Part shown: positions 3,552 through 13,919 of the stretch, in pieces
How the letters are laid out: each line of letters opens with the position of its first letter
Numbering within the stretch: position 1 is the stretch's first letter
DNA from: Caulifigura coniformis
Lineage (GTDB): Bacteria; Planctomycetota; Planctomycetia; Planctomycetales; Planctomycetaceae
Direction: 5' to 3'
DNA: 64,000 bases
Assembly (NCBI RefSeq): GCF_007745175.1
Contig: NZ_CP036271.1
Span: 2,376,154 to 2,440,153, forward strand
The notes under the pieces: generated by a model
Seen by the model: only the letters and a program-made list of their open reading frames with translations
What the model was told of the DNA's origin: nothing
The model's database searches: none
Program-made: the position numbers and the translations under genes

Positions 3552-4195
3552 CTAAGCCGCCTTCCGTTCGAACGACTTCACCAGGCCGCCCACGTAAGAC
3601 CGGACCTCGATTCTGTTCCGAATCGGTTTGTCCACCTCGTCGGGCACGGTGCCCAGCGGTGGCAAGTGGGCTCGCTCCATGTGGGCCCGTTGCCCGTTGT
3701 AGTACACGAGGAAGCTTTCGATGAGGTAGTCGAGATGCCGGTTACCAAAAAGAATGAATTTGAAGAGCAGCTCGTGCTTCAGAGTTTGTATCAGCCGCTC
3801 GCAGCGTCCATTCAGGTTCGGTGAGGCGACCGGCAAGGGGTTCGTCCTGAGTCCTCCCTTCTCGCACGCCGCTGTGAAGGCCCGCGAGAACTTCGTGTCC
3901 CGATCATGCATCAGGATGTCGGGCTTCTTCTCCCGGTCCTTCGTCTTAACCAGAAACTCCTTCGTCTGCCGGACCACCCAGGCCGAGTTCGGATGCTGCG
4001 TCGATTTCGAAACAATTGCTTCCCGTGTCCCAACTGAAGCAGACGACGGCGCTCATCGGGCTTTGTGTGGACCTGACCCTTGATCCTCGTGCGGAGAATC
4101 TTGTTCTCCTCCTTCAGGAATTCGACGTACCGAGCCAACTGGCGGTCGGTCACGGAGGCGATCAGGGCCAACAGTGGGTGGTAAATCGCCGCCAT
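3552..4195 (-). pseudogene. Degenerate integrase-core (DDE) transposase
   Basis: Two leftward frames together make one transposase. The N-terminal part (from 4195) reads AAIYHPLLALIASVTDRQL then ARYVEFLKEENKILRTRI, the usual N-terminus of integrase-core transposases common in planctomycetes. After residue ~55 the frame is lost. The C-terminal part (3552-3977) has the integrase core: DILMHDRDTKFSRAF (an Asp), then NLNGRCERLIQTLKHELL with the final Glu region, then LVYYNGQRAHM near the end. Part of the middle is missing, so the gene is frameshifted and internally deleted. Fragments of the same family occur at 16973-17060 and 20026-20130. No terminal inverted repeats were identified. Confidence 0.75.
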
Positions 4196-4325
4196 CCAGG
4201 TATCGTCGCAGTCTGTACTGTGGAATGGGATTACACATTCCTTGTACAGCGCTTTGACCCTTTGAAAACGACGGTGAAACGCTCTTCGAACGGATGATTG
4301 AGAAGTCGTTCTTCAAATGCGTCAC
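4189..4325. repeat. Diverged repeat: transposase upstream region, copy 1
   Basis: This stretch, covering the transposase N-terminus and the bases upstream of it, resembles 20091-20235. Shared strings include TATCGTCGCAG, GATTACACATTC, ACAGCGCTT and AATGCGTC, in the same order and spacing. In both places a small-ORF scar follows to the right. This shows that the same mobile unit landed, or was duplicated, at both sites and then decayed. Confidence 0.6.
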
Positions 4326-5195
4326 ATCTGTCGTATTTGGCCAAATCGTGAGCTGGCGTTGATCGCATCAGAGGGGATGCGCGTCGCCGTTGGACTTCGG
4401 CAAAGCTGCCTCCACCAGCGACACAATCGCCGCGCGGATGGAGGGCGAAAGATCGCCCCAAACTCCCTCGATGACGTCGAGTTCCCTCCCGATGTCAGCG
4501 CGAAGATCAAGACCTACGTCTACCGACTCATCGACCCCCGAAATGGCGAAACGTTCTACATCGGCAAAGGCCAGGGCAATCGCGTGTTCGCTCATATTCG
4601 CGACGACCTGGGTTCCGACGAGAGCGACACGCTCACCAACAAGTTGAAACGCATTCGAGAGATTCGGAATGCGGGCTTTGAGGTCATCCATGTGATTCAT
4701 CGTCACGGAATGGACGACAAAACGGCCTTCGAAGTTGAAGCGGCCCTTCTGGACGCATTTCCCGGTCTGACCAATCAAGCGGGGGGCGTGGGGAATAACG
4801 ATGTTGGGGCGATGCATGCGGGAGAGATCATTCGCCGTTATCGGGCAGAGCCAGCAGAGTTCATTCATCGGGTTATTCTGATCAACGTCAATCGGTCGGC
4901 AGTCGAGTCCTCTCTTTACGAGGCGACCCGTTATGCATGGAAGGTTGGACCAAAGGCTCATCGTGCAGAAGTCGTGCTCCCAACTGTCCAAGGGCTGATT
5001 GTTGGGGCTTTCATTCCGGAAAAATGGCTGGCTGCTGTTCCGGAGAATTTCCCAGGACGAGATGAAGTGCCGGGCCGCCTCGGCTTCATCGGCAGAGAAG
5101 CCTCGCGAGAAATCAGGGAACAGTACGTGGGAAAAAGAGTGCCAGATGCGTTCCGAAAACCGGGCTCTGCAAACCCCATCAAATATACGTGGTAG
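4317..5195 (+). CDS. GIY-YIG nuclease-domain protein (LEM-3-like group), start uncertain
   Basis: Residues from about 63 on form a GIY-YIG domain: YVYRLID as the GIY strand, FYIGKGQGNRVFAH as the YIG strand with the conserved Arg, then a helix and EVEAALLDAFP with the catalytic-type Glu. The rest (about 150-292) is an unassigned C-terminal region. The arrangement fits the COG3680 / LEM-3-like GIY-YIG group, cytoplasmic endonuclease-like proteins of unclear role. The first ~60 residues are translated from the reverse strand of the small-ORF scar (4368-4510) and do not look like authentic protein. No ATG or GTG sits close upstream of the domain in frame. The native start was probably replaced when the scar formed, so the gene may be 5'-truncated. 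Confidence 0.7.
   Translation: MRHICRIWPNRELALIASEGMRVAVGLRQSCLHQRHNRRADGGRKIAPNSLDDVEFPPDVSAKIKTYVYRLIDPRNGETFYIGKGQGNRVFAHIRDDLGSDESDTLTNKLKRIREIRNAGFEVIHVIHRHGMDDKTAFEVEAALLDAFPGLTNQAGGVGNNDVGAMHAGEIIRRYRAEPAEFIHRVILINVNRSAVESSLYEATRYAWKVGPKAHRAEVVLPTVQGLIVGAFIPEKWLAAVPENFPGRDEVPGRLGFIGREASREIREQYVGKRVPDAFRKPGSANPIKYTW
4368..4510 (-). repeat. Small-ORF scar, subfamily B, copy 1
   Basis: Read leftward this encodes a tail LDVIEGVWGDLSPSIR then AAIVSLVEAALPKSNGDAHP, closely matching the tail encoded at 33993-34125 (LDLIDSVWGDLPPSIR then AAIVSIVEAALPKPNS). At DNA level both contain GAAAGATCGCCCCAAAC or GGAAGATCGCCCCAAAC. No start codon or complete gene is left. It belongs to a set of five scars that mark module borders in the left half of the window. 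In planctomycete genomes I recall similar short genes ending in WP.L...I..GI..M...A next to integrases, so this is probably the 3' end of an integrase-linked small gene (partly recall). Confidence 0.6.
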
Positions 5196-5258
5196 AGTAT
5201 CGACGGCATTGCAGTGTTGTATCAGCCGTGATGCGATGGCACTCCAGTGCGAATGGCA

Positions 5259-5392
5259 TCAGATGGCGTCCTCACTCATCGTGATGAGTGCAGCCATGAA
5301 GGGCGCTGAGAGTCGTGGCCACGACTCGACGACCTTGAGCAGTTGGGGATCGACTGGTTGACAGTCAACGCCAGCGAGTGTCCGTCACACGG
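5259..5392 (-). repeat. Small-ORF scar, subfamily A, copy 1
   Basis: The leftward translation is CQPVDPQLLKVVESWPRLS followed by APFMAALITM, almost the same as the tail at 17068-17307 (CRPVDPQLLKFVESWPRLS). At DNA level GTGGCCACGACTCGACGA and GATCGACTGGTTGACA are shared or nearly shared with that copy. The reading frame ends early here through point changes, and there is no start codon. It lies between the GIY-YIG gene and the arsenic island and marks a module border. Confidence 0.65.
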
Positions 5393-5422
5393 CGCTCGGC
5401 TGCCACGTGTAAGATGAGCATG

Positions 5423-5794
5423 CTACGGCTCGCAGCACCCACCGCTTGCGCCCACCGTTTTGGCCCGCCGCCGGTCTGCTTGAAGCTCGGGCACTTCGGC
5501 AAAACAGGTTCCAACACATTCGATCAATCGACGGTGAAGATGGTCCCCAACTGGTGACAGCGAGTAGTGCCGCCAGAGACCGTCTTTCCGTGATTGAACA
5601 AGTCCAGACCGCTGCAGGAGCAGTAAGTGCCGAGAGATCTTGGGCTGCGGCTGCTGCAAAATGGTGGTGATATCACCCACGCAGCGTTCCCCCTCCAGCA
5701 ACAGAAACAGGATGCGAATCCGCGTGCGGTCCGCGAACGCGCGAAATAGCTGATCCATGGGAAGCAGCGGACGAGGCTTGTTTCGCAGTTTCAT
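5423..5794 (-). CDS. ArsR/SmtB-family metalloregulator (arsenic unit 2)
   Basis: A winged-helix repressor of 123 residues when started at the ATG at 5794. The frame is open further upstream, to 5977, but that part has no family features and would overlap the ABC ATPase gene. The core contains FRAFADRTRIRILFLLLEG, CVGDITTIL, then the recognition helix PQPKISRHLLLLQRSGLV and the wing KDGLWRHYSL. Cysteines occur in the CVGD helix, in CVGTC near residue 91-95 and as a C-terminal GGCCEP. Clustered thiols of this kind are used by ArsR proteins to sense trivalent arsenic. It is the last gene of a leftward unit with an ABC ATPase, a permease and a thioredoxin-fold protein, and may repress that unit through the palindrome at 8735-8756 (inference). 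Confidence 0.85.
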   Translation of the reverse strand: MKLRNKPRPLLPMDQLFRAFADRTRIRILFLLLEGERCVGDITTILQQPQPKISRHLLLLQRSGLVQSRKDGLWRHYSLSPVGDHLHRRLIECVGTCFAEVPELQADRRRAKTVGASGGCCEP

Positions 5795-5888
5795 GGCTGT
5801 GACTGCCCGATAATCTGAATGACCGCTGCGCATCGTGACGGCCGCAGACACAAAGTCAAATCCTGTGCCTGCGGCCGTGTCTGTCACC

Positions 5889-6584
5889 TCAGGCGACACA
5901 TCGTGCGGCGTTTCCGGCTGGTGAGTCCTGGATCCCGCCATTGACCAGCCGAAGCGTTCGCTGCGCACGTGCGGCACAGGCCGGATCGTGCGTCACGACG
6001 ATCAGGGTCCGACCTTCCTTGTGAATCTCGTCGAACATCGCCAGCACCTGCTCGCGAGTTTCGGGATCGAGATTGCCGGTCGGCTCATCTGCCAAAATCA
6101 ATGCTGGATTGATGGCCAGCGTTCGAGCCAGCGCCACGCGTTGCTGCTGGCCGATGCTCAGTTCCGAGGGCAAGTGCTGCGTTCGGTCTCCCAAGCCGAC
6201 ACGTTCGAGTGTCTGCCGCGCCCGATCAACCTGTTCCTCCTTCGGCACCCCGCCGAGGCACAACGGCATCTGCACGTTCTCCAGGGCCGTGAGGTACGGA
6301 ATCAGGTTGAACGTCTGGAAGATGAATCCAATCTTCGCGCCCCGCAGCCGTGTGCGGGCCGACACTGACAGGTCGTACATGGATTCCGTACCAAGCTGCA
6401 TCTTGCCGGTGCTGGGGGCCAGCATGCCCCCCAGGATCGAGAGCAACGTGGTTTTGCCGCTGCCGGACGGCCCCACAATCGCGACATACTCTCCATCGGC
6501 AATGTCGAGTGTCGTCGGCTGCAATGCCGTGACCGCAGAGCCGTGCCGATGATACTGCTTACTGATGTTGTTGAGTTTCAACAT
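5889..6584 (-). CDS. ABC transporter ATP-binding protein, LolD/MacB type (arsenic unit 2)
   Basis: A 231-residue ATPase with every ABC motif intact: Walker A GPSGSGKTT near 38-46, Q-loop FIFQTFN near 88-94, signature LSIGQQQR near 142-149 (Ile replaces the usual Gly of LSGGQ, as in some MacB-type proteins), Walker B LILADEPTGNLDPE near 162-175 and the switch His in VVTHD near 197. The family energises FtsX/MacB-type permeases that move substrates or act on envelope proteins without crossing the membrane themselves. The start is 2 bp from the stop of the permease gene at 6587, so the pair is one transporter. The next gene downstream is an ArsR regulator, which places the transporter in arsenic or related metalloid handling. 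Confidence 0.9.
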   Translation of the reverse strand: MLKLNNISKQYHRHGSAVTALQPTTLDIADGEYVAIVGPSGSGKTTLLSILGGMLAPSTGKMQLGTESMYDLSVSARTRLRGAKIGFIFQTFNLIPYLTALENVQMPLCLGGVPKEEQVDRARQTLERVGLGDRTQHLPSELSIGQQQRVALARTLAINPALILADEPTGNLDPETREQVLAMFDEIHKEGRTLIVVTHDPACAARAQRTLRLVNGGIQDSPAGNAARCVA

Positions 6585-6586
6585 GG

Positions 6587-7801
6587 TTACACCTCCTTAA
6601 AGCACAGGCACGGATCGAGACGGGACGCCCGCCAGGCGGGCCAGAGACTGGCGACGAGGGCGACCAGCACCGACAGGCCGACGGACAATCCCGCCAGCAT
6701 CGGAATCGGGCGAACACCGACATTGGCAAGGAGTGGTCCGAGCCAGAACGCGGCCACGCTCCCCAGGGCAAATCCAAACACACCGCCGACCAGTCCCAGT
6801 GCGAGTGCTTTCCCCATGATGAGCCGGAGGATGAAGCTGGGTGTTGCACCGAGGGCCATCAGCGTGCCGATCTCCTTACGGCGTTCGGACACGTTGGCAA
6901 ACAGCGAACTTGCCATGGCCGCGCCGCCGACGGCCAGCAACACCGCCAGGAACAGCAACGACAGATTCTCCATGAGGCGATTGACGTTCTGCTGCGTCTG
7001 AACCACCTGTGTGATGGTGACAACCTTGGCATCCGGCAGCAGCGAGTTCAGTCCACCGACGAGGCCACCGGCGATTTCCTTGCAGCAGCCGACGATCTCG
7101 ATCACGTTCACCACCGGACCGCTGGCCGAAAGTTCCTGCACCGAGTGCAGGTGGGCGAAGATCCGATCGTCATCGACAGTTCCCGTTGCCGGGAGGACCG
7201 CAAGGACTTTGAATGCCTCGCCGAACAGCGTGACGCTGGAGTCTTCTCTGAGAGCCAGCTTGGTCGCCGTTTCAGAGCCGACCAGCACTTCACGCTCACC
7301 GAGCGTCTCAATGACCCGTTTGCGGGCGAGCTGTGCGTGGTCGACCTCCTTGCCGGGGATTTCCACCGTCGATCCGCAGCCGATCGGGCGTGCAAACACA
7401 CCGGCTCCGCCCCAGGCCGCCTTCGCCTGAAACTCACTCTTGGGCAGGATACCCGTCACCGTCACTTTGCGTTCACCGACGGTCGCCGGAACGCTCAGCT
7501 TGGGGGACAGATTGTCGACGCCTTCCAGCGTCGACAGCGAAATCAGATCGACATACTCCTCCGGGAGTGTCTGCCCGTGACTGTCGGCCGCGTAGTAATC
7601 CTGCAGGCTCACATCCTTGGGAAGGATCAGGACGTTCGCCCCGAGCGAATCGACTTCCCGCATGACGGCCAGTTCCGAGTAGGTCGTGACCGTGCGGATG
7701 GCGACGAGTGAGGTGACGCCCAGCACGATGGCCAGCAGACACGTCAGCATCGGCACCGGCCGCTCAGAGAGTTCCTTTTGAATCAGCTTGATAAGGTTCA
7801 T
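6587..7801 (-). CDS. FtsX/MacB-type ABC permease with vicinal cysteines (arsenic unit 2)
   Basis: A 404-residue permease with the four-helix FtsX layout: one TM segment at about 17-37, a large extracytoplasmic domain at about 40-275 (MacB-PCD type), then three TM segments at about 279-300, 325-357 and 368-390. Two features are unusual. The extracytoplasmic domain has a vicinal Cys pair (IVGCCKEI, residues 239-240) plus Cys142. The C-terminal cytoplasmic motif, normally RLDPxxALR in MacB-like permeases, reads RLDPCLCF with a Cys-x-Cys at 398-400. Vicinal dithiols bind As(III) well in other proteins. The gene is directly coupled to its ATPase downstream and sits 57 bp after a thioredoxin-fold gene. 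I infer an arsenic or thiol-metalloid transport or envelope role; the substrate is unknown. Confidence 0.85.
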   Translation of the reverse strand: MNLIKLIQKELSERPVPMLTCLLAIVLGVTSLVAIRTVTTYSELAVMREVDSLGANVLILPKDVSLQDYYAADSHGQTLPEEYVDLISLSTLEGVDNLSPKLSVPATVGERKVTVTGILPKSEFQAKAAWGGAGVFARPIGCGSTVEIPGKEVDHAQLARKRVIETLGEREVLVGSETATKLALREDSSVTLFGEAFKVLAVLPATGTVDDDRIFAHLHSVQELSASGPVVNVIEIVGCCKEIAGGLVGGLNSLLPDAKVVTITQVVQTQQNVNRLMENLSLLFLAVLLAVGGAAMASSLFANVSERRKEIGTLMALGATPSFILRLIMGKALALGLVGGVFGFALGSVAAFWLGPLLANVGVRPIPMLAGLSVGLSVLVALVASLWPAWRASRLDPCLCFKEV

Positions 7802-7858
7802 GAATGAACTCCTTTCGGCGCAGGCATGCTTCTGAATGAAACACGCCGAAGTGTGAAA

Positions 7859-8629
7859 TCAATTCCTGGCCGTGGTCTTGGCAGGCTGGCAGCCGTTGGG
7901 GCCGCACTTACCGCCCGGGCAACAGCTGGACTGCGCCGTCTTGAGCGTCGCGACAATCTGATCTTTGGTGACGGAAGTCGGATACGACGCGAGCACTGTT
8001 CCGGGGGGCGCGATCAGTGCCGTCGTCGTGGACGGGTGGTTCGTCAATTTGAGGCTTTTCAGGAACTCCTGTTCGGTGGGGTCGCCTGAGCTGATCGACA
8101 CGACTTCGGTGGACATTCCGTAGGCCGGGTCTTTGAGGAAGTCGGCGACTCCGTTAGGCACTTCCATGGCCGGATCGTGATGCACGCACAACAGTGCCAG
8201 CTTCTTCGTCTGGCCCGCCAGCAGGCAGGCCGCTGTTCCCTTACTCACGATTGCTTTGTCGAGCTGTTCGGCCGTAACTCGAACGGGGAATCCGCCGGTG
8301 ACGGCGCGGTTCGGGGCAATCGCCAGCGTCAGCGGCATGGGCGCCCGGCCGAGCTGCCACTGGTCGATGAGGACTTTCTCCTGAGGGTTGGCGACATCGA
8401 TCTCCACGAGTCGCCGCTGCTCGGGATGCTTGGCCGTCTCAGTCGTGAGTGTCTGTCGCATCGTCTGCGTCGCCGCGTCGTTCTTGCGGGAGAACAGAAT
8501 GAACAGATGCTGACCCTGAGAACGGGCTTCCTGGAGTTCTTTCTGACCGGGTGACAGTTCGGCGGCGGAGGAGGAGGCCGCAACTGCGCAGACAATCGCA
8601 GTGCACAACAGCGTGAGTGTTCGGGACAT
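7859..8629 (-). CDS. Secreted thioredoxin-fold-like protein, no CxxC, C-terminal Cys cluster
   Basis: The start is taken at the ATG at 8629: AGGAAG stands a few bases upstream and the product begins with a clear signal peptide (MSRTLTLLCTAIVCAVAA, then SSSAA). The mature protein begins like a thioredoxin-fold domain (GQHLFILFSRKNDAATQTM at about 40-58), but the place where CxxC would be holds SRKNDAAT, so it is unlikely to be a normal oxidoreductase. A second strand-helix unit follows. The C-terminus is rich in Cys and Gly: SSCCPGGKCGPNGCQP at 234-249. It is the first gene of the leftward unit with the FtsX-type permease, its ATPase and ArsR. It may deliver or sense metalloid outside the membrane (inference). 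Exact family not recognised. Confidence 0.75.
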   Translation of the reverse strand: MSRTLTLLCTAIVCAVAASSSAAELSPGQKELQEARSQGQHLFILFSRKNDAATQTMRQTLTTETAKHPEQRRLVEIDVANPQEKVLIDQWQLGRAPMPLTLAIAPNRAVTGGFPVRVTAEQLDKAIVSKGTAACLLAGQTKKLALLCVHHDPAMEVPNGVADFLKDPAYGMSTEVVSISSGDPTEQEFLKSLKLTNHPSTTTALIAPPGTVLASYPTSVTKDQIVATLKTAQSSCCPGGKCGPNGCQPAKTTARN

Positions 8630-8734
8630 GGAAACTTCCTTTCTGAATAGTCCGGGGGGCGTGTGAACCTCGAAACAAAGGTAGGGCTCACGAGCGAGGG
8701 CGATGACCGCCACTCCGGGGTGGGTTCTGTAATC

Positions 8735-8756
8735 TATATTCGTCCAGACGCATATA
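8735..8756. promoter_or_regulatory. Near-perfect palindrome, candidate ArsR operator of arsenic unit 2
   Basis: Two 10-bp arms (TATATTCGTC and GACGCATATA) separated by 2 bp form an inverted repeat with one mismatch. It lies 106 bp upstream of the thioredoxin-fold gene start at 8629. On the leftward strand TATAGATT overlaps it as a possible -10. The size and 2-bp centre fit ArsR/SmtB operators. It would let the distal arsR gene (5423) repress its own unit. Confidence 0.55.
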
Positions 8757-8920
8757 CTGATTTCAGTGTTTCGGTTGCGCGCCAAGGCGATTCCCAGAGT
8801 TGCGACGCTGTGTGACAGGCCGCACAGGTGGAGATTCCGCGAGGCCTGCATCAGAAGCGCGCGAAGAGGAAGGGTGAATGCGGGCTTACCCGATTTGCTT
8901 GTTGAAGCACGCGTTCCGAA

Positions 8921-10021
8921 TCAACCCGAGCCGACGGCCGGAGATGGGAACCAGTTGCGTGTGCGATTGCAGACCGAGCAGACGCTCAGCATGACCGGCA
9001 CTTCGACGAGGACGCCGACAACGGTCGCCAGTGCCGCGCCGGAGTCAGGTCCATAGAGAGCAATCGCCGTTGCGACAGCCAGTTCGAAGAAGTTGCTCGC
9101 TCCAATCAGGGCCCCTGGAGCTGCAATGGAGTGCGGCACACCCAGCCACCACATCAGTCCGTAAACCAACGAGGAGTTGAAGTAGACCTGAATCAGAATC
9201 GGAATCGCAATCAGAATCACATGCAGCGGATGCTGCAGGATGTTGTCGGCCTGAAACGCAAAGATCAGAACCAGTGTCACCAGCAAGGCCAGGACGGCCA
9301 GCGGCTGGAACTGCGGCAGGAACTGGGCCTCGAACCACGCCGCTCCTTTGGCTCGAACAAGCAGCATTCGCGTCAGGGTGCCGATGACGAGCGGAACTAC
9401 GATGAACACCGCGACCGAAAGCAGAATCACATTGAATGGCACTGCCAAACCCGCCACCCCGACCAGAAGGCCGACAATCGGCGCAAACAGCACGAGCATG
9501 AGAAGGTCGTTGAGTGCCACCTGCACGAGCGTGTAGGCCGGGTCGCCGTCCGTCAGGTAACTCCAGACAAACACCATCGCCGTACAAGGCGCGGCGGCCA
9601 GGATGATGACGCCCGCGGTGTACTGTCGCGCCAGTTCCTCCCCGATGATCGGTAGGAAGAGGATCTGGAAGAAGAGCCATCCAAGCACAAACATTCCGAA
9701 CGGCTTGACCAGCCAGTTGACGAACAGCGTGACGACAATCCCCTTTGGTCGACGCGTGACGCCCCTGAGCGAGGCGAAGTCGATCTTCATCATCATCGGG
9801 ATGATCATCAGCCAGATCAGCACGGCGATCGGGCCGTTGATCTGGCTTCCCGATGCAAACTCCAGGCTACGAAGGAAGGTGGTCGCCTGCGGCAGGAGTT
9901 TTCCGATCGCGATGCCGCCCACCATGCACAGGGCGACCCACAGCGTCAGGTAACGCTCGAACAGGTTGAGCCGTTTGACTTCAGGCGAGACAGCGCTGGA
10001 TAGAGTCGTTGGGTCAGTCAT
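8921..10021 (-). CDS. acr3: Acr3-family arsenite efflux permease
   Basis: A 366-residue membrane protein with about ten TM helices and the hallmarks of the ACR3 (BASS superfamily) arsenite exporters: [21 protein letters not shown] at the start, [13 protein letters not shown] near 86-98, the conserved cysteine in [15 protein letters not shown] near 145-159, and the [14 protein letters not shown] motif near 318-331. It exports arsenite using the proton gradient. The start overlaps the stop of arsC by 4 bp, and arsA lies upstream, so it is the last gene of the main ars operon. An ArsA usually pairs with ArsB, but ArsA-Acr3 pairing is also known. Confidence 0.95.
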
Positions 10022-10452
10022 TTTGAATTCAAAAGCTCAGGCAGGCGATCACGCACGAAGTCACGAATTTCATCGCGGACACGACGGTAGTGCTGCAGGC
10101 CTTCCTCATCGCTGGTAGCGGACTTCGCGAGCTTGGGCGGATCATCGAAGCCAACATGCACGACGCGGGACGCACCGAGGAAGGCCGGACAATTCTCGTC
10201 CGCATGACCGCAGACAGTGATCACCAGACCAAAGGGCACACCTTCGAGGCTGCTGGCCAACTTGGACGTTTGCCCGGAAATATCGACCCCCGCTTCGGCC
10301 ATGACTTTGACCGCGTTGGGGTTCAGACCGTGGGCTTCGATTCCGGACGAGTAGGCTTCGACTGTGTCACCAAGCAGGCTTCGCGCCCAGCCTTCGGCCA
10401 TTTGGCTCCGGCACGAGTTTCCCGTGCAAAGGAACATGACTTTCGACTTCAT
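10018..10452 (-). CDS. arsC: Arsenate reductase, LMW-phosphatase (thioredoxin-coupled) type
   Basis: A 144-residue enzyme that reduces arsenate to arsenite in the cytoplasm. The phosphatase loop is CTGNSCR (Cys9 to Arg15, the Cx5R motif) and the shuttle cysteines are Cys81 and Cys88 in [13 protein letters not shown]. These correspond to Cys10, Cys82 and Cys89 of plasmid pI258 ArsC, shifted by one. The HVGFDDPPK segment near 115 carries the conserved Asp. All catalytic residues are present. It overlaps arsA upstream by 4 bp and acr3 downstream by 4 bp, so the three genes are translationally coupled. Confidence 0.96.
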
Positions 10453-12251
10453 ACGTTTGTTATCTCCTTCACGACTTGAGGTGTTTTCGATTCGCAGATT
10501 TCACCGACAAGATCCAGAAGTGCGGCGCACCCAACGGGCGGCTGCGGCCGCCATGGAATCAGCGCCGTGCGGGCCGCGTGTTCGCTCATGACTTCTCGCA
10601 GGTAAGGCTGTTCCGCCTGCTGGCGAGCACGCAGCAGCGGATCGGTGACCGACAGTGGTGCGAGGCTCTGGTTGACGACCCATGCAAATGGCTCAATGCC
10701 AGCCCGCCGGAGGTCGCGCTGGAGTGAAGCCGCTTCGTGAACCGGGGTGGCCTCCGGCAGCGTGACGATGAGGACTCGTGAGAAATTGGGATCTCGCAAT
10801 CGCGGCAACAGGTGCTCCACGGCCGGAGGCATCTGGTTGGTCTGTCGTGTAACTTCGCGGTGATAAGCGAGCGCCGAATCGAGCAGAAGAATCGTATGTC
10901 CCGTCGGGGCCGTATCGAGAACGACGAAGCGGTCCGCCCCCTCGGCCACCGCATCGGCGAAGGCACGAAACACGGCGATCTCTTCCGTGCAGGGTGATCG
11001 CAGGTCTTCGGCCAGGAGCGACTTGCCCTGCTCATCCAGACCGGCTCCCGCTGTCTGCATCACCTGTTCGGAATACTTCGCGGTTTCAGCCGCAGGATCG
11101 ATGCGACTGACGGTCAGTTGTTCGAGGTTTTCACCGGCGACGGCCGCTGCAATGTGAGCGGCGGGGTCAGTCGTCGAAAGATGCACGCGATGTCCCCGGT
11201 GAGCCAGTGCAACGGCGACGGCGGCCGCAACCGTCGTTTTGCCAACGCCTCCCTTGCCCATCGAGAGAATGACGCCGTGTCCCGCCGCTTCCAGCTCATC
11301 GACGAGCGGCGCCAAGCCTGGCGGGATCGTGAGCGACGAGACTTCACTGCGTGCAATCGCGACGGATCGTTGCGATTTGCCGAAGGAGCGCAAAGCCTCC
11401 ACACCGACAACGCCATTGGCCGCGAGCGGGATAATCGTCTGAGGAAAGTTGCGGAGCGAGTCGGGAAGCTCGTCCAACGCCAATTCACTTCGTCGCTGCA
11501 TGGCGACGGCCAGCGGGTCACTCGGGTCGGTTGCCTGAAACACGGCGTTCACGACAAGGTGCTGATTCTTGACCCCGAGTTCCGCGAGTTCGCCGCTGGT
11601 GCGGGCCGCTTCCCGGAAGGCCGTTGCCTCGGCCCTGGCAACCAGAACAAGCGTGGTGATCGCCGGATCGGCGAGGGCCTTCACCGTCTCCTGATAGAGC
11701 TTCTGTTGTGACTGAAGACCAGCGAGTGGGCCCAGGCACGATGTGCCCGTCGTGTTGCTCTCCATGAAGCCCGACCAGGCGGACGGCAGAGTCAGCAAAC
11801 GAAGGGTGTGGCCGGTTGGAGCCGTGTCGAAGATGACGTGATCGAAGTCTGTGGTGGCGGTCGGATCTCCAAGCAGTCGTGAGAACTCATCGAACGCCGC
11901 AATCTCCAGCGTGCAAGAGCCGGAGAACTGTTCTTCCATGCTGGCGATCGCCGCCGGTGGCAGCATTGTCCGGTACGGGCCCACCATCCGCTCGCGATAC
12001 TCCTTCGCTGCGGTCTCCGGATCGAGATTCATGGCGAAGAGTCCAGGGACGGCTGCGATGGCGACCGGTTGATTCCCCAATTGCGTCGCCAGCACCTCGT
12101 CCAGGTTCGACGCCGGATCGGCCGAGACCAACAGCACCCGTTTTCCGGCGTCGGCCAGACGGACGGCCGTGGCGCAGGCCACGGAGGTTTTGCCGACTCC
12201 GCCTTTGCCGGTAAAGAACAGGTTGCGTGTGGGGGTTGCCAGAATTTCCAT
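10449..12251 (-). CDS. arsA: Arsenical pump-driving ATPase ArsA, two-domain form
   Basis: A 600-residue protein with two homologous halves. Half A1 has the P-loop GKGGVGKT at 15-22 and [12 protein letters not shown] near 142-153. Half A2 has a second GKGGVGKT near 331-338 and [12 protein letters not shown] near 447-458. The DTAPTGHT signal that couples As(III) binding to ATP hydrolysis is thus present twice, as in classical ArsA. A Cys in CTLEIAAF (first half) and one in CTEEIAVF (second half) match the conserved metalloid-site cysteines. ArsA sits on the membrane pump (here Acr3) and receives As(III) from ArsD. It lies 56 bp downstream of the ArsM-ArsD gene and overlaps arsC by 4 bp. Confidence 0.96.
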
Positions 12252-12307: not shown

Positions 12308-13537
12308 TTAGCAGGATCCGCCGCTGCTCTTGGCTGGATCCTCGGTCTGCCCTGAACTGGAGTTGGTCGTCCACATCTCCAGCATTTCCCGCGACGGGTA
12401 GCCGCGACGGCTGACGATCTTGCCGTCCACCATCACGATGGGCAGGCACTCGACTCCCCGAACGCCGATCAGCTTGTGGACTTCCGGGTACTTCAGGAAC
12501 TCCTGCGGCTGCTGGGCCAGGTTATAGCGTTCGACCGTGTGGCCCTGTGATTTGAGCCAGTCGAGATCAGCCGCAAACTTCGGCAGGACTGGATCGACCC
12601 GCGGACCGCAGACGCCTGTAGAACAGCACATTGGCTTGTCAAAGACCTGGATGGTTTTCATGGCGTTGTTCTCCTTCTGTTGTTCAAACGTGAAAGACTC
12701 ATCCACCGTTTTCAGCGCATGAACCCGGACACTTGCGGCGTACGCGTTCACGTCCAGGGTCTGCAAAACCGACTTCAATTCATCGTGCAGGCCCGTGGGC
12801 GCAGAATCTCCACACGCCGACCCACCGCAACATCCATTCCCGCTCGCTTGAGCGTAGGCGTTCAGGTTCGCTCCGGTGTCCTGGACAACGACCGCCTCGA
12901 AGCCTGCTTCGCGCAGCAGGCGTTCGTAGTCCTCGATCAGAATTGCTCCGGCGATGCAGCCGACGAGGGCCTGCACACTGTCAGCGACGGATTCGGGAAG
13001 CGGCTTCCGCAGCGCGATATCGCTGACGACCATGCGGCCGCCCGGCTTTAGAACTCTCAGGATTTCCCTGAACACGGCCGCTTTGTCTGGCGCAAGGTTG
13101 ATCACGCAGTTGCTGATGACGCAGTCCACGGACGCATCCGGCAGCGGCAGTTGATCGATGCGGGCCAGGTGAAACTCGACGTTCGTCGCTCCCACTTCCG
13201 CCGCTCCCGCCCGAGCACGATCAACCATGTCGGGCGTCATGTCGATGCCGATGGCCTTGCCAGTCGGGCCCACTCGTTTCGACGCCAAGAGAACATCTAG
13301 GCCGCCGCCACTCCCGAGATCGACGACAGTCTCCCCTTCCCGCAGCCCCGCCAGAGCTACGGGATTTCCGCATGACAGGCCCATGTTCGCTTGTGGCGGG
13401 AGAGACGCGAGGTCTTGTTCCGAGTATCCGAACGCCGCCGCCACCGCACGGACTCCTGCGTGTTCGTTGTTGAGGCCACTGCGGGCCACAGCTCCGTACT
13501 GTTCTGAAACGACCTTCAATTGCTCTTCGGTATCCAT
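12308..13537 (-). CDS. arsM-arsD: ArsM-ArsD fusion: arsenite S-adenosylmethyltransferase joined to arsenic metallochaperone
   Basis: One continuous frame of 409 residues. Residues 1-250 are ArsM: SAM-binding [16 protein letters not shown] near 71-86, and the three conserved catalytic cysteines at 56 (LSCGNP), 144 (SNCVINL) and 194 (VGCIAGA). [12 protein letters not shown] motif follows at 234-243. Residues 293-409 are ArsD, beginning [20 protein letters not shown]; counted from that Met, the As(III)-binding cysteines are 12, 13 and 18, exactly as in known ArsD. ArsM methylates As(III); ArsD hands As(III) to ArsA, encoded next. A strong ribosome site (AAGGAG, 9 bp spacing) precedes the internal ArsD ATG at 12661, so free ArsD may also be made. 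GGAGGAG precedes the ArsM start. Confidence 0.93.
12671..12676 (-). promoter_or_regulatory. Internal ribosome binding site for ArsD inside arsM-arsD
   Basis: On the leftward strand the sequence AAGGAG stands 9 bases before the ATG at 12661, which begins a normal-length ArsD (117 residues). It suggests that arsD was once a separate gene joined in frame by loss of the arsM stop, and that two products (fusion and free ArsD) may be made. Confidence 0.6.
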
Positions 13538-13592: not shown

Positions 13593-13919
13593 TCACAGAT
13601 CCGAGATCAAAGACTTCAGCTCCCCCAACGCCTTGGAGTTGACGCAATAACAGACGCGGGGCCCGTCCACTTCCCCCTGAATGAGTCCGCACTCTTTCAG
13701 GATCTTCAGGTGCTGGGAGACCGTCGACTGGGCCACCGGCAGCTCGTCCACGATCTCACCGCACACGCACGATTGGCGGCGGGTCAGGATTTGCAGAATC
13801 TTGACTCGTAGCGGGTGCGCGATTCCCCACGCCAGTTCAGCCAATCGCTCATCGACGGGAACGCCGCGGCGATCCGCGGCGGGGGCGCACGTCCGATTTG
13901 CCTTCGCCGCTCGTGTCAT
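13593..13919 (-). CDS. arsR: ArsR arsenic-responsive repressor of the main ars operon
   Basis: A 108-residue winged-helix repressor. The DNA-binding part is [19 protein letters not shown] at about 61-79 with the wing [10 protein letters not shown]. The As(III) site is SCVCGEIV with Cys51-x-Cys53, placed like the ELCVCDL motif of E. coli ArsR; further thiols are Cys11, 77, 90 and 92. It is the promoter-proximal gene of the leftward ars operon (arsR, arsM-arsD, arsA, arsC, acr3) and probably controls it through the inverted repeat at 13935-13952, and perhaps the divergent OsmC/P-ATPase genes. Confidence 0.95.

Follow-up and report, generated by a model that had tools for sequence, protein, structure and literature searches.

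A candidate thiol-based ABC system for periplasmic metal(loid) handling in the arsenic island of Caulifigura coniformis

We examined a 64,000-nucleotide stretch of the Caulifigura coniformis genome (the window), in which an arsenic island includes a triad of minus-strand genes for a secreted protein, an FtsX/MacB-type permease and an ATPase, followed in that order by an ArsR-type regulator (8629-5423). The triad had been predicted, from the sequence alone, to be an arsenic-dedicated ATP-binding cassette (ABC) system with thiol motifs in its membrane, secreted and regulatory parts. Our comparisons of conservation and gene neighborhood indicate that the arsenic link is real for the group to which the window's permease belongs, and that the thiols mark a broader family for thiophilic metal(loid)s. 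We put at about 60% the probability that the triad is an ABC system that uses thiols to handle metal(loid)s in the periplasm, where As(III) or soft metals would be captured by thiols or selenols and then handled at the expense of ATP. A role of the family in handling thiophilic metal(loid)s is very probable. The four genes, their order and the cysteines attributed to them were all present in the sequence and in domain searches, and the numbering given for C239-C240, C398 and C400 was correct.

The permease (404 amino acids; 6587-7801, minus strand) belongs to the FtsX/MacB-type (type VII) ABC superfamily by domain cut-offs and by fold. It scored over the Pfam cut-offs for FtsX (61.9 bits; cut-off 25.5) and MacB_PCD (43.0 bits; cut-off 27), and has one N-terminal and three C-terminal long helices flanking a periplasmic MacB_PCD-like domain. 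Its AlphaFold model (mean predicted local distance difference test score, pLDDT, 82.9) matched the folds of 5xu1_M (Z 24.3), LolE (9rld_E, Z 22.1), MacB (5gko_A, Z 20.7) and a heme exporter (7w7a_B, Z 18.6). It is not MacB proper, as it scored 50.8 bits against the NCBIfam model PRK10535 (cut-off 966) and its ATPase is encoded by a separate gene rather than fused, and it stayed below the cut-off of the LolCE model TIGR02212 (43.6 bits; cut-off 362.45). The ATPase, which is LolD/MacB-like (5889-6584, minus strand), begins with an ATG two bases past the permease stop codon.

Relatives of the permease were collected in two ways. Scanning bacterial and archaeal genomes for peptide patterns, with six peptides of which two include the cysteines, gave 69 loci (numbered L; genomes are numbered G). 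When 59 genomes were searched over the whole length of the permease, a near-full-length class of matches stood out at E ≤3.3e-105, with the next matches at 1.9e-22. The triad is tightly linked: among 97 loci, a secreted partner was encoded within 8 kb in 95 and an ATPase within 1.5 kb in 96. These loci still contain two pairs with identical permeases (L070/L141 and L057/L058) as well as near-copies, and because such related rows remain, the counts given below are of loci and not of separate events, and the evidence is weaker than the Fisher values suggest. Duplicates were dropped from the 77-row tree and the C398/C400 counts (L086, L008) and also from the 98-permease set (L134, L132, L138, L194-L196); permeases that are partial at contig ends or breaks (e.g., L056, L067, L074-L076, L079, L081-L084 and L103) lie outside the residue counts and trees. 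Within the window's phylum, the permease occurred in 37 of 392 sampled genomes at E 1e-60, the window's own included. In the phyla of Desulfomonilaceae, Hydrogenedentes and Riflebacteria genomes, the carriers numbered 4/345, 5/68 and 4/39, each count including the genome that was picked for having the permease.

Several thiols and two histidines are nearly invariant among the 98 full-length permeases of the family. C142 (codon at 7376-7378) was kept in 97; in the vicinal pair C239-C240 (7082-7087), C240 was kept in all 98 and C239 in 97, the remaining permease having an in-frame TGA at this position (L142); and H217 and H219 of the FAHLH motif (7145-7153) were kept in 96 and 94, respectively. 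Of these residues, the original prediction had noted the pair but neither C142 nor the two histidines, which are conserved to about the same degree. Similarly, in the 39 permeases that came from whole-length genome searches, counted apart from the peptide-pattern finds but obtained with a BLAST or profile query that still contains the C239-C240 pair, C142 was present in 39/39, C239 in 38 plus the one TGA and C240 in 39/39. None of four outgroup FtsX permeases has C142 or the C239-C240 pair. The permease model places C142, the HxH motif and C239-C240 in the periplasmic domain, between long helices 1 and 2. Thus, the conservation of the thiols on which the original prediction was built is above chance, both here and in the tail of the secreted partner.

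The secreted partner (256 amino acids; 7859-8629, minus strand) has an N terminus that is signal-peptide-like by eye, two thioredoxin-like units and a C-terminal cysteine tail, SSCCPGGKCGPNGC, whose core CCPGGKCGPNGC spans C236-C247 (7889-7924). A Pfam search at E 0.001 gave no family for this protein. Its AlphaFold model (mean pLDDT 90.0) has two successive strand-helix units followed by the disordered tail. The first domain has a thioredoxin fold (Z 13.2, root mean square deviation 2.1 over 99 residues to 2vlt_B), and the second is modeled as thioredoxin-like, judged by secondary structure alone. As had been claimed, the protein is of thioredoxin fold without CxxC: this motif was found in the thioredoxin-site region of 0/67 aligned partners, the window's included. 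In the same alignment, tail cysteine C242 was kept in 67/67 and C247 in 65/67, and at least two cysteines lie within the last 45 residues of 125 of 128 partner open reading frames (ORFs). The three others are L190 and two TGA cases in L133 that are described below. The L190 homolog (6852-7982) has no cysteine tail and a coiled-coil-like end. Partner genes are in tandem in L018, L019, L026, L035, L045, L050 and L071, with a lipobox-like motif in the first copy (judged by eye in L018) and the second copy not flagged.

We compared the genes around the permease, assigning neighbors from BLAST matches to proteins of the window and to sample proteins, at cut-offs of our own choosing, only representatives being checked with curated models; many contigs are short, so neighbor counts within 8 kb are limited. 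In the window's own group (the arsenic group, 47 loci), an ars pump or enzyme was found within 8 kb in 29 loci and an ArsR in 39, with Acr3 near 25, ArsC near 15 and ArsM near 11. By contrast, in a second group (the metal branch, 39 loci), we found an ars pump or enzyme in 0/39, and a CusA/CzcA-type HME-RND pump or a P1B-ATPase in 23/39. A third branch had ars genes in 2/11 and ArsR in 3/11, and control loci with other FtsX permeases of the same class had ars in 0/19 and P1B in 1/19 (one of the 20 control loci, L170, was without a permease match; 18 of the remaining 19 have 5-kb flanks). When the comparison was limited to loci flanked on each side by 5 kb or more, ars pumps or enzymes were present in 16/26 of the arsenic group, compared to 0/25 of the metal branch (Fisher P = 1.0e-6) and 0/18 of the control (P = 1.5e-5), and HME-RND or P1B genes in 14/25 of the metal branch, compared to 1/18 of the control (P = 8.5e-4). 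In the curated-model check, three of four RND representatives passed TIGR00914 and both P1B representatives passed TIGR01525/TIGR01512; the RND of L064 was below every cut-off listed for it.

These neighborhoods uphold one part of the original prediction, a metal(loid)-linked FtsX/MacB-type ABC system apart from ArsA-Acr3, and revise another. It had named permeases with the same cysteines in non-arsenic contexts as evidence against itself, and the metal branch supplies them: its 39 permeases share C142, C239 and C240, none was found with an ars pump or enzyme within 8 kb, and 23 stand beside CusA/CzcA-type RND pumps or P1B-ATPases. Since the same thiols occur in this setting, "arsenic-dedicated" holds at most for one group. 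Likewise, the expected co-occurrence with ars genes is seen for Acr3 and ArsR in the arsenic group, but is weak for ArsM, and in the metal branch no ars pump or enzyme was found within 8 kb. The two terminal cysteines of the permease, C398 and C400 of LDPCLCF (6602-6610), which should be cytoplasmic by MacB/LolE topology, had also been taken for an arsenic feature. We rejected them as such: C398 is found in 34/34 metal-branch and 27/43 arsenic-group rows, and C400 in 25/34 metal-branch rows but in only 1/43 of the arsenic group, the one being the window's permease. C400 is thus a metal-branch rather than an arsenic trait.

The tails of the secreted partners follow the same division, being of the CGP type in the arsenic group and CCDDxNCKH in the metal branch. 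On a 77-row permease tree, tail type required one change among 68 rows and context three changes among 65 rows (9 rows were uncounted for tails, having a tail of another type or no partner, and 12 for context, having no labeled neighbor); the tail classes are patterns written after the tails had been seen. On a tree of 97 rows, the 39 rows of the metal branch and the 11 of the third branch each formed one side of a branch, with Shimodaira-Hasegawa-like approximate likelihood ratio test (SH-aLRT) values of 99 and 100. Rooting with the four other FtsX permeases was rejected. Because the outgroup branches were long (4.56 and 7.18 changes per column) and two outgroup rows fell inside the family, the tree is unrooted as to arsenic-versus-metal polarity. 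The window's permease is itself a long branch (0.65-0.68) at the junction of the groups, branches off first within the 43-row arsenic group of the 77-row tree, and may keep an intermediate state. A further copy, of the metal type, is present in the window's genome (6166047-6167267), and the tail there is CCNDENCKH.

Two further observations concern the other branches. Permeases of the third branch (L127, L143-L150, L191, L192) are 41-44% identical to that of the window and keep the CC pair; their neighbors are mostly unidentified, and their partners have tails such as CCGDPSCKGCK. Upstream of the triad in L037, L040, L042 and L084, between it and the RND genes, lie genes for two families of small His-rich proteins (c10 and c12); a Pfam search with one member of each family gave nothing significant.

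Selenocysteine appears to stand in for the cysteine of the tail or of the pair in at least two other lineages. The permease frame of L142 (genome G321) is open through a TGA exactly at C239 (IEVVG-U-CKEI), a position that aligns to cysteine in 97/98 family permeases. Its upstream neighbor encodes a lipoprotein-like member of the partner family (24% identity, BLAST E 2.7e-11 to the L068 partner), whose frame runs through two TGAs, as GGGG-U-GP in a linker and as SCGSG-U-K-stop in the tail. At the position of the tail TGA, L023, L069 and L079 end in GGCK-stop (compared by eye); for the linker TGA no cysteine counterpart was seen in other members, and the lipoprotein would lose its signal sequence if this codon were not read through. 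L142 (1-5047 of the locus) thus has three in-frame TGA codons, and by eye an RnfC-like gene adjoins. G321, which is 77% complete, encodes SelA (523 bits), SelB (352.3 bits) and SelD (398.2 bits) over their cut-offs, SelD with an in-frame TGA of its own, while none of the three was over cut-off in the window's genome. The second case, L133 (G325), is an ars locus with ArsC, ArsM, Acr3 and ArsR and with tandem partner lipoproteins at 4844-6471, both of which stop at a TGA where the cysteine tail should continue (tail positions by eye); read-through up to the next stop would give ACG-U-GSVCAPVGC and SGSG-U-GGGGCAPAGCK. No further permease TGA was reported among the matches listed in four phylum searches; one listed match, and one permease from another search, had a TAA.

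A number of observations weigh against our interpretation of the family, and several of them concern its neighborhoods. Within 8 kb, 18/47 arsenic-group loci have no ars pump or enzyme (some of their contigs being short); 12 of these 18 retain ArsR, and L024, L041, L062, L070, L141 and L190 do not. HME-RND or P1B genes occur in 5/47 arsenic-group loci, and 16/39 metal-branch loci have neither within 8 kb, again with some short contigs. A single-query BLAST placed an outer-membrane factor near 0/47 arsenic-group loci, although clustering placed one near L070. With respect to phylogeny, the remaining 47 rows of the 97-row tree, those of the arsenic group, need two changes, so this group is not shown to be one clade, and in the outgroup tree of the 98-permease set the window's row joins the metal branch (SH-aLRT 94). 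For the putative site, a single cysteine aligns at 239 in two of the four outgroup permeases and a histidine at 217 in one; C142 lies in a loop modeled with pLDDT below 50, and for this reason a joint C142/C239-C240 site is only putative.

The same holds for selenocysteine. A match of G321 to RF01852 was rejected as tRNA-Sec: it scored 49 bits against a threshold of 47, but ARAGORN reads the gene as tRNA-Ser(tga). Hairpins resembling selenocysteine insertion sequences after the TGAs were not clearly better than shuffles (z -0.58, -1.25 and -2.25 in L142; -1.85 and -1.61 in L133). Moreover, TGA ends 30 partner ORFs, and among the 28 besides the two of L133, 3 (L020, L095, L191) likewise have a short extension with at least two cysteines. 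Since the normal tail is already complete there, these three were set aside as chance, which shows that such extensions also arise by chance, and a tail TGA may be a true stop. Any single codon might be a chance nonsense mutation, an assembly error or a true stop; this is less likely for four codons at or beside cysteine positions in two genomes.

We can outline how such a system might work. Binding of As(III) by the regulator's cysteines would de-repress the unit. The cysteine tail of the secreted thioredoxin-fold protein, conserved as described, would capture As(III), or a soft metal in the other branch. The carrier would then dock on the periplasmic domain of the permease and the ion pass to the conserved C239-C240, C142 and perhaps H217/H219. 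ATP binding and hydrolysis, in a cycle like that of the MacB and LolCDE proteins whose fold the permease resembles, might then release the ion outward or reset the carrier. An adjacent CusA/CzcA-type pump could take over the released ion in the metal branch, and selenocysteine in place of a tail or pair cysteine, as the in-frame TGAs suggest, would raise the affinity for soft ions or the rate of exchange. Exit from the cell, transfer to another pump and parking on the carrier are all compatible fates of the ion. The wider picture, in which these are ATP-driven envelope machines whose thioredoxin-fold carriers pass soft metal(loid)s by thiol/selenol exchange to a vicinal CC/UC site of an FtsX permease, with an arsenic group and a heavy-metal branch and carrier tails to match, has in our estimate not quite an even chance of being right, and the hand-over in the particular steps drawn here is more tentative still.

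We considered that the triad might instead serve thiol-redox repair, with the ABC engine and its thioredoxin-fold partner reducing or remodeling envelope proteins damaged by disulfides or metals, and metal genes standing nearby because metals cause the damage. The thioredoxin fold, the vicinal cysteine pair and the apparent replacement of cysteine by selenocysteine at both pair and tail fit this idea, as such replacement is typical of redox sites. Against this, none of the 67 aligned partners has a CxxC in the thioredoxin-site region, the tails, with Cys-Gly-Pro or CCDDxNCKH, resemble metal ligands, and tail type changes with the class of the neighboring genes; on balance we regard repair as unlikely. 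The original prediction had further suggested a system that would act on arsenic methylated by ArsM or on thiol-bound arsenic. ArsM-ArsD and the triad do share one island in the window, and ArsM is near 11/47 arsenic-group loci, but Acr3 is the commoner partner (25/47), 36/47 loci have no ArsM found within 8 kb (many contigs being short), and the same thiols recur in 39 metal-branch loci where no ars pump or enzyme was found. Thus, we rejected ArsM as the key partner, and an arsenic-only system of this kind seems improbable.

The fold of the permease raises two other explanations. Its closeness to LolE (Z 22.1) and the lipobox-like motif in a number of partners, including the first tandem copies of L019, L026, L035, L045, L050 and L071, would suit an ABC unit that, like LolCDE, releases or sorts its partner, which is lipoprotein-like in several loci. 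However, the partner of the window and many others were not flagged for a lipobox, there is a single permease gene rather than LolC plus LolE, with a score far from the LolCE cut-off, and trafficking would leave the invariant thiols unexplained, so that we hold this to be the least probable of the explanations. A permease of the HrtBA/MacB kind might alternatively extract a hydrophobic metal-organic compound from the membrane, with the partner only a receiver. The heme exporter among the structural relatives (Z 18.6) and the single-permease architecture agree with this; the position of C142, HxH and C239-C240 in the periplasmic domain, with the other conserved cysteines on the secreted partner, does not, and such extraction is as improbable as the ArsM system. 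Thiol-based handling of metal(loid)s in the periplasm is therefore the explanation that we prefer.

The remaining features of the locus concern its regulation and the adjoining ars unit. The regulator, of the ArsR/SmtB family with ECVGTC and a terminal GGCCEP, probably starts, as judged by eye, at the ATG at 5794 (5423-5794, minus strand) rather than at the GTG at 5977 of the long ORF. Its GGCC end is present as claimed and is common: among 28 ArsR-like genes just downstream of the ATPase, 13 have a GGCC end, 12 are of the CxC type, 2 have CC without GG and 1 is truncated. Between the ATPase and regulator genes, an inverted repeat (5838-5878; two 15-nucleotide arms, 93% complementary, 11 nucleotides apart) is a possible operator or attenuator. 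A scan of 5300-9000 for sigma-70-type promoters found 0, compared to 0.6 expected.

The triad unit sits downstream of an ars unit that encodes, also on the minus strand, ArsR, ArsM-ArsD, ArsA, an ArsC-like protein and Acr3. The first ArsR-family regulator, with a CVC motif, was assigned by domain matches (13593-13919). The ArsM methyltransferase and ArsD metallochaperone domains, over the cut-offs of NF008823 and NF033727, share a single 409-amino-acid frame (12308-13537), possibly a natural fusion. The pump-driving ATPase ArsA (10449-12251) and the arsenite efflux pump Acr3 (8921-10021) score over the cut-offs of TIGR04291 and TIGR00832, and the ArsC-like arsenate reductase, of the thioredoxin type (10018-10452), is below that of TIGR02691 (146.8 bits; cut-off 174.3). 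To the left of the island, ORF fragments resembling integrases or transposases were seen by eye (3552-4325, minus strand). Plasmid carriage was rejected, with 0 matches in 72,556 records at E 1e-30.

The triad family is apparently undescribed. We found no description of it in the portions of the literature that our search covered; studies by Haft on Sao and selenoprotein neighborhoods could overlap the selenocysteine part. The usual explanation of resistance to arsenic and soft metals invokes pumps, reductases and methylases of the cytosol. If our interpretation is right, a periplasmic ABC unit with invariant thiols, present in several phyla, adds an envelope step to arsenic and heavy-metal resistance, and among the members of the family are a selenoprotein permease of the FtsX type and a carrier whose tail contains selenocysteine, with no description of either found in the literature searched. 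On evolutionary grounds, the apparent selenocysteine at thiol positions argues for a chemical role of the thiols, and it makes the site directly testable by Cys/Ser/Sec exchange.

Comparison with known systems places the triad among several of them. It has in common with MacB (of MacAB-TolC) and with FtsX-type systems including LolCDE the FtsX C-terminal domain, the MacB-like periplasmic domain and the LolD/MacB-like ATPase, and differs from them in its separate ATPase gene, single permease, dedicated thioredoxin-fold secreted partner and invariant C142, C239-C240 and HxH. Unlike in MacAB, an adaptor (membrane fusion protein) is near only 3/47 arsenic-group loci, and no curated MacB or LolCE cut-off was reached. 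The HrtBA heme exporter, which consists of an ATPase and one permease and has a toxic metal compound as its substrate, has a homologous permease fold; we know of no secreted partner or cysteine pair in HrtBA. In NosL-NosDFY copper delivery, a periplasmic metal carrier works with an ABC transporter, which offers a model for how the triad might act, although the permease family and the partner differ from those of the triad. The closest parallel for the selenocysteine is the selenocysteine-assisted organometal (SAO) system (SaoP, SaoB, SaoX, SaoC, SaoT), in which ABC genes and predicted selenoproteins are associated with organometal or metalloid handling; SaoP appears as an ABC permease selenoprotein in a review of the prokaryotic selenoproteome, whose main text does not name FtsX (PMC13188914). 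Both SAO, as far as it is described there, and the triad pair ABC transport genes with predicted selenoproteins, but the permease of the triad is of the FtsX type and its partner has a thioredoxin fold. The NCBIfam Sao models gave no match in the window's secreted protein and permease, four sampled family members and the L146 partner (E up to 10), or in three TGA readings of L133 and L142 (E up to 1). Finally, ArsA-Acr3 arsenite efflux belongs to the same island as the triad and would deal with the same toxicant through different protein families. ArsA-Acr3 acts on cytosolic As(III); the conserved thiols of the triad, in contrast, should face the periplasm.

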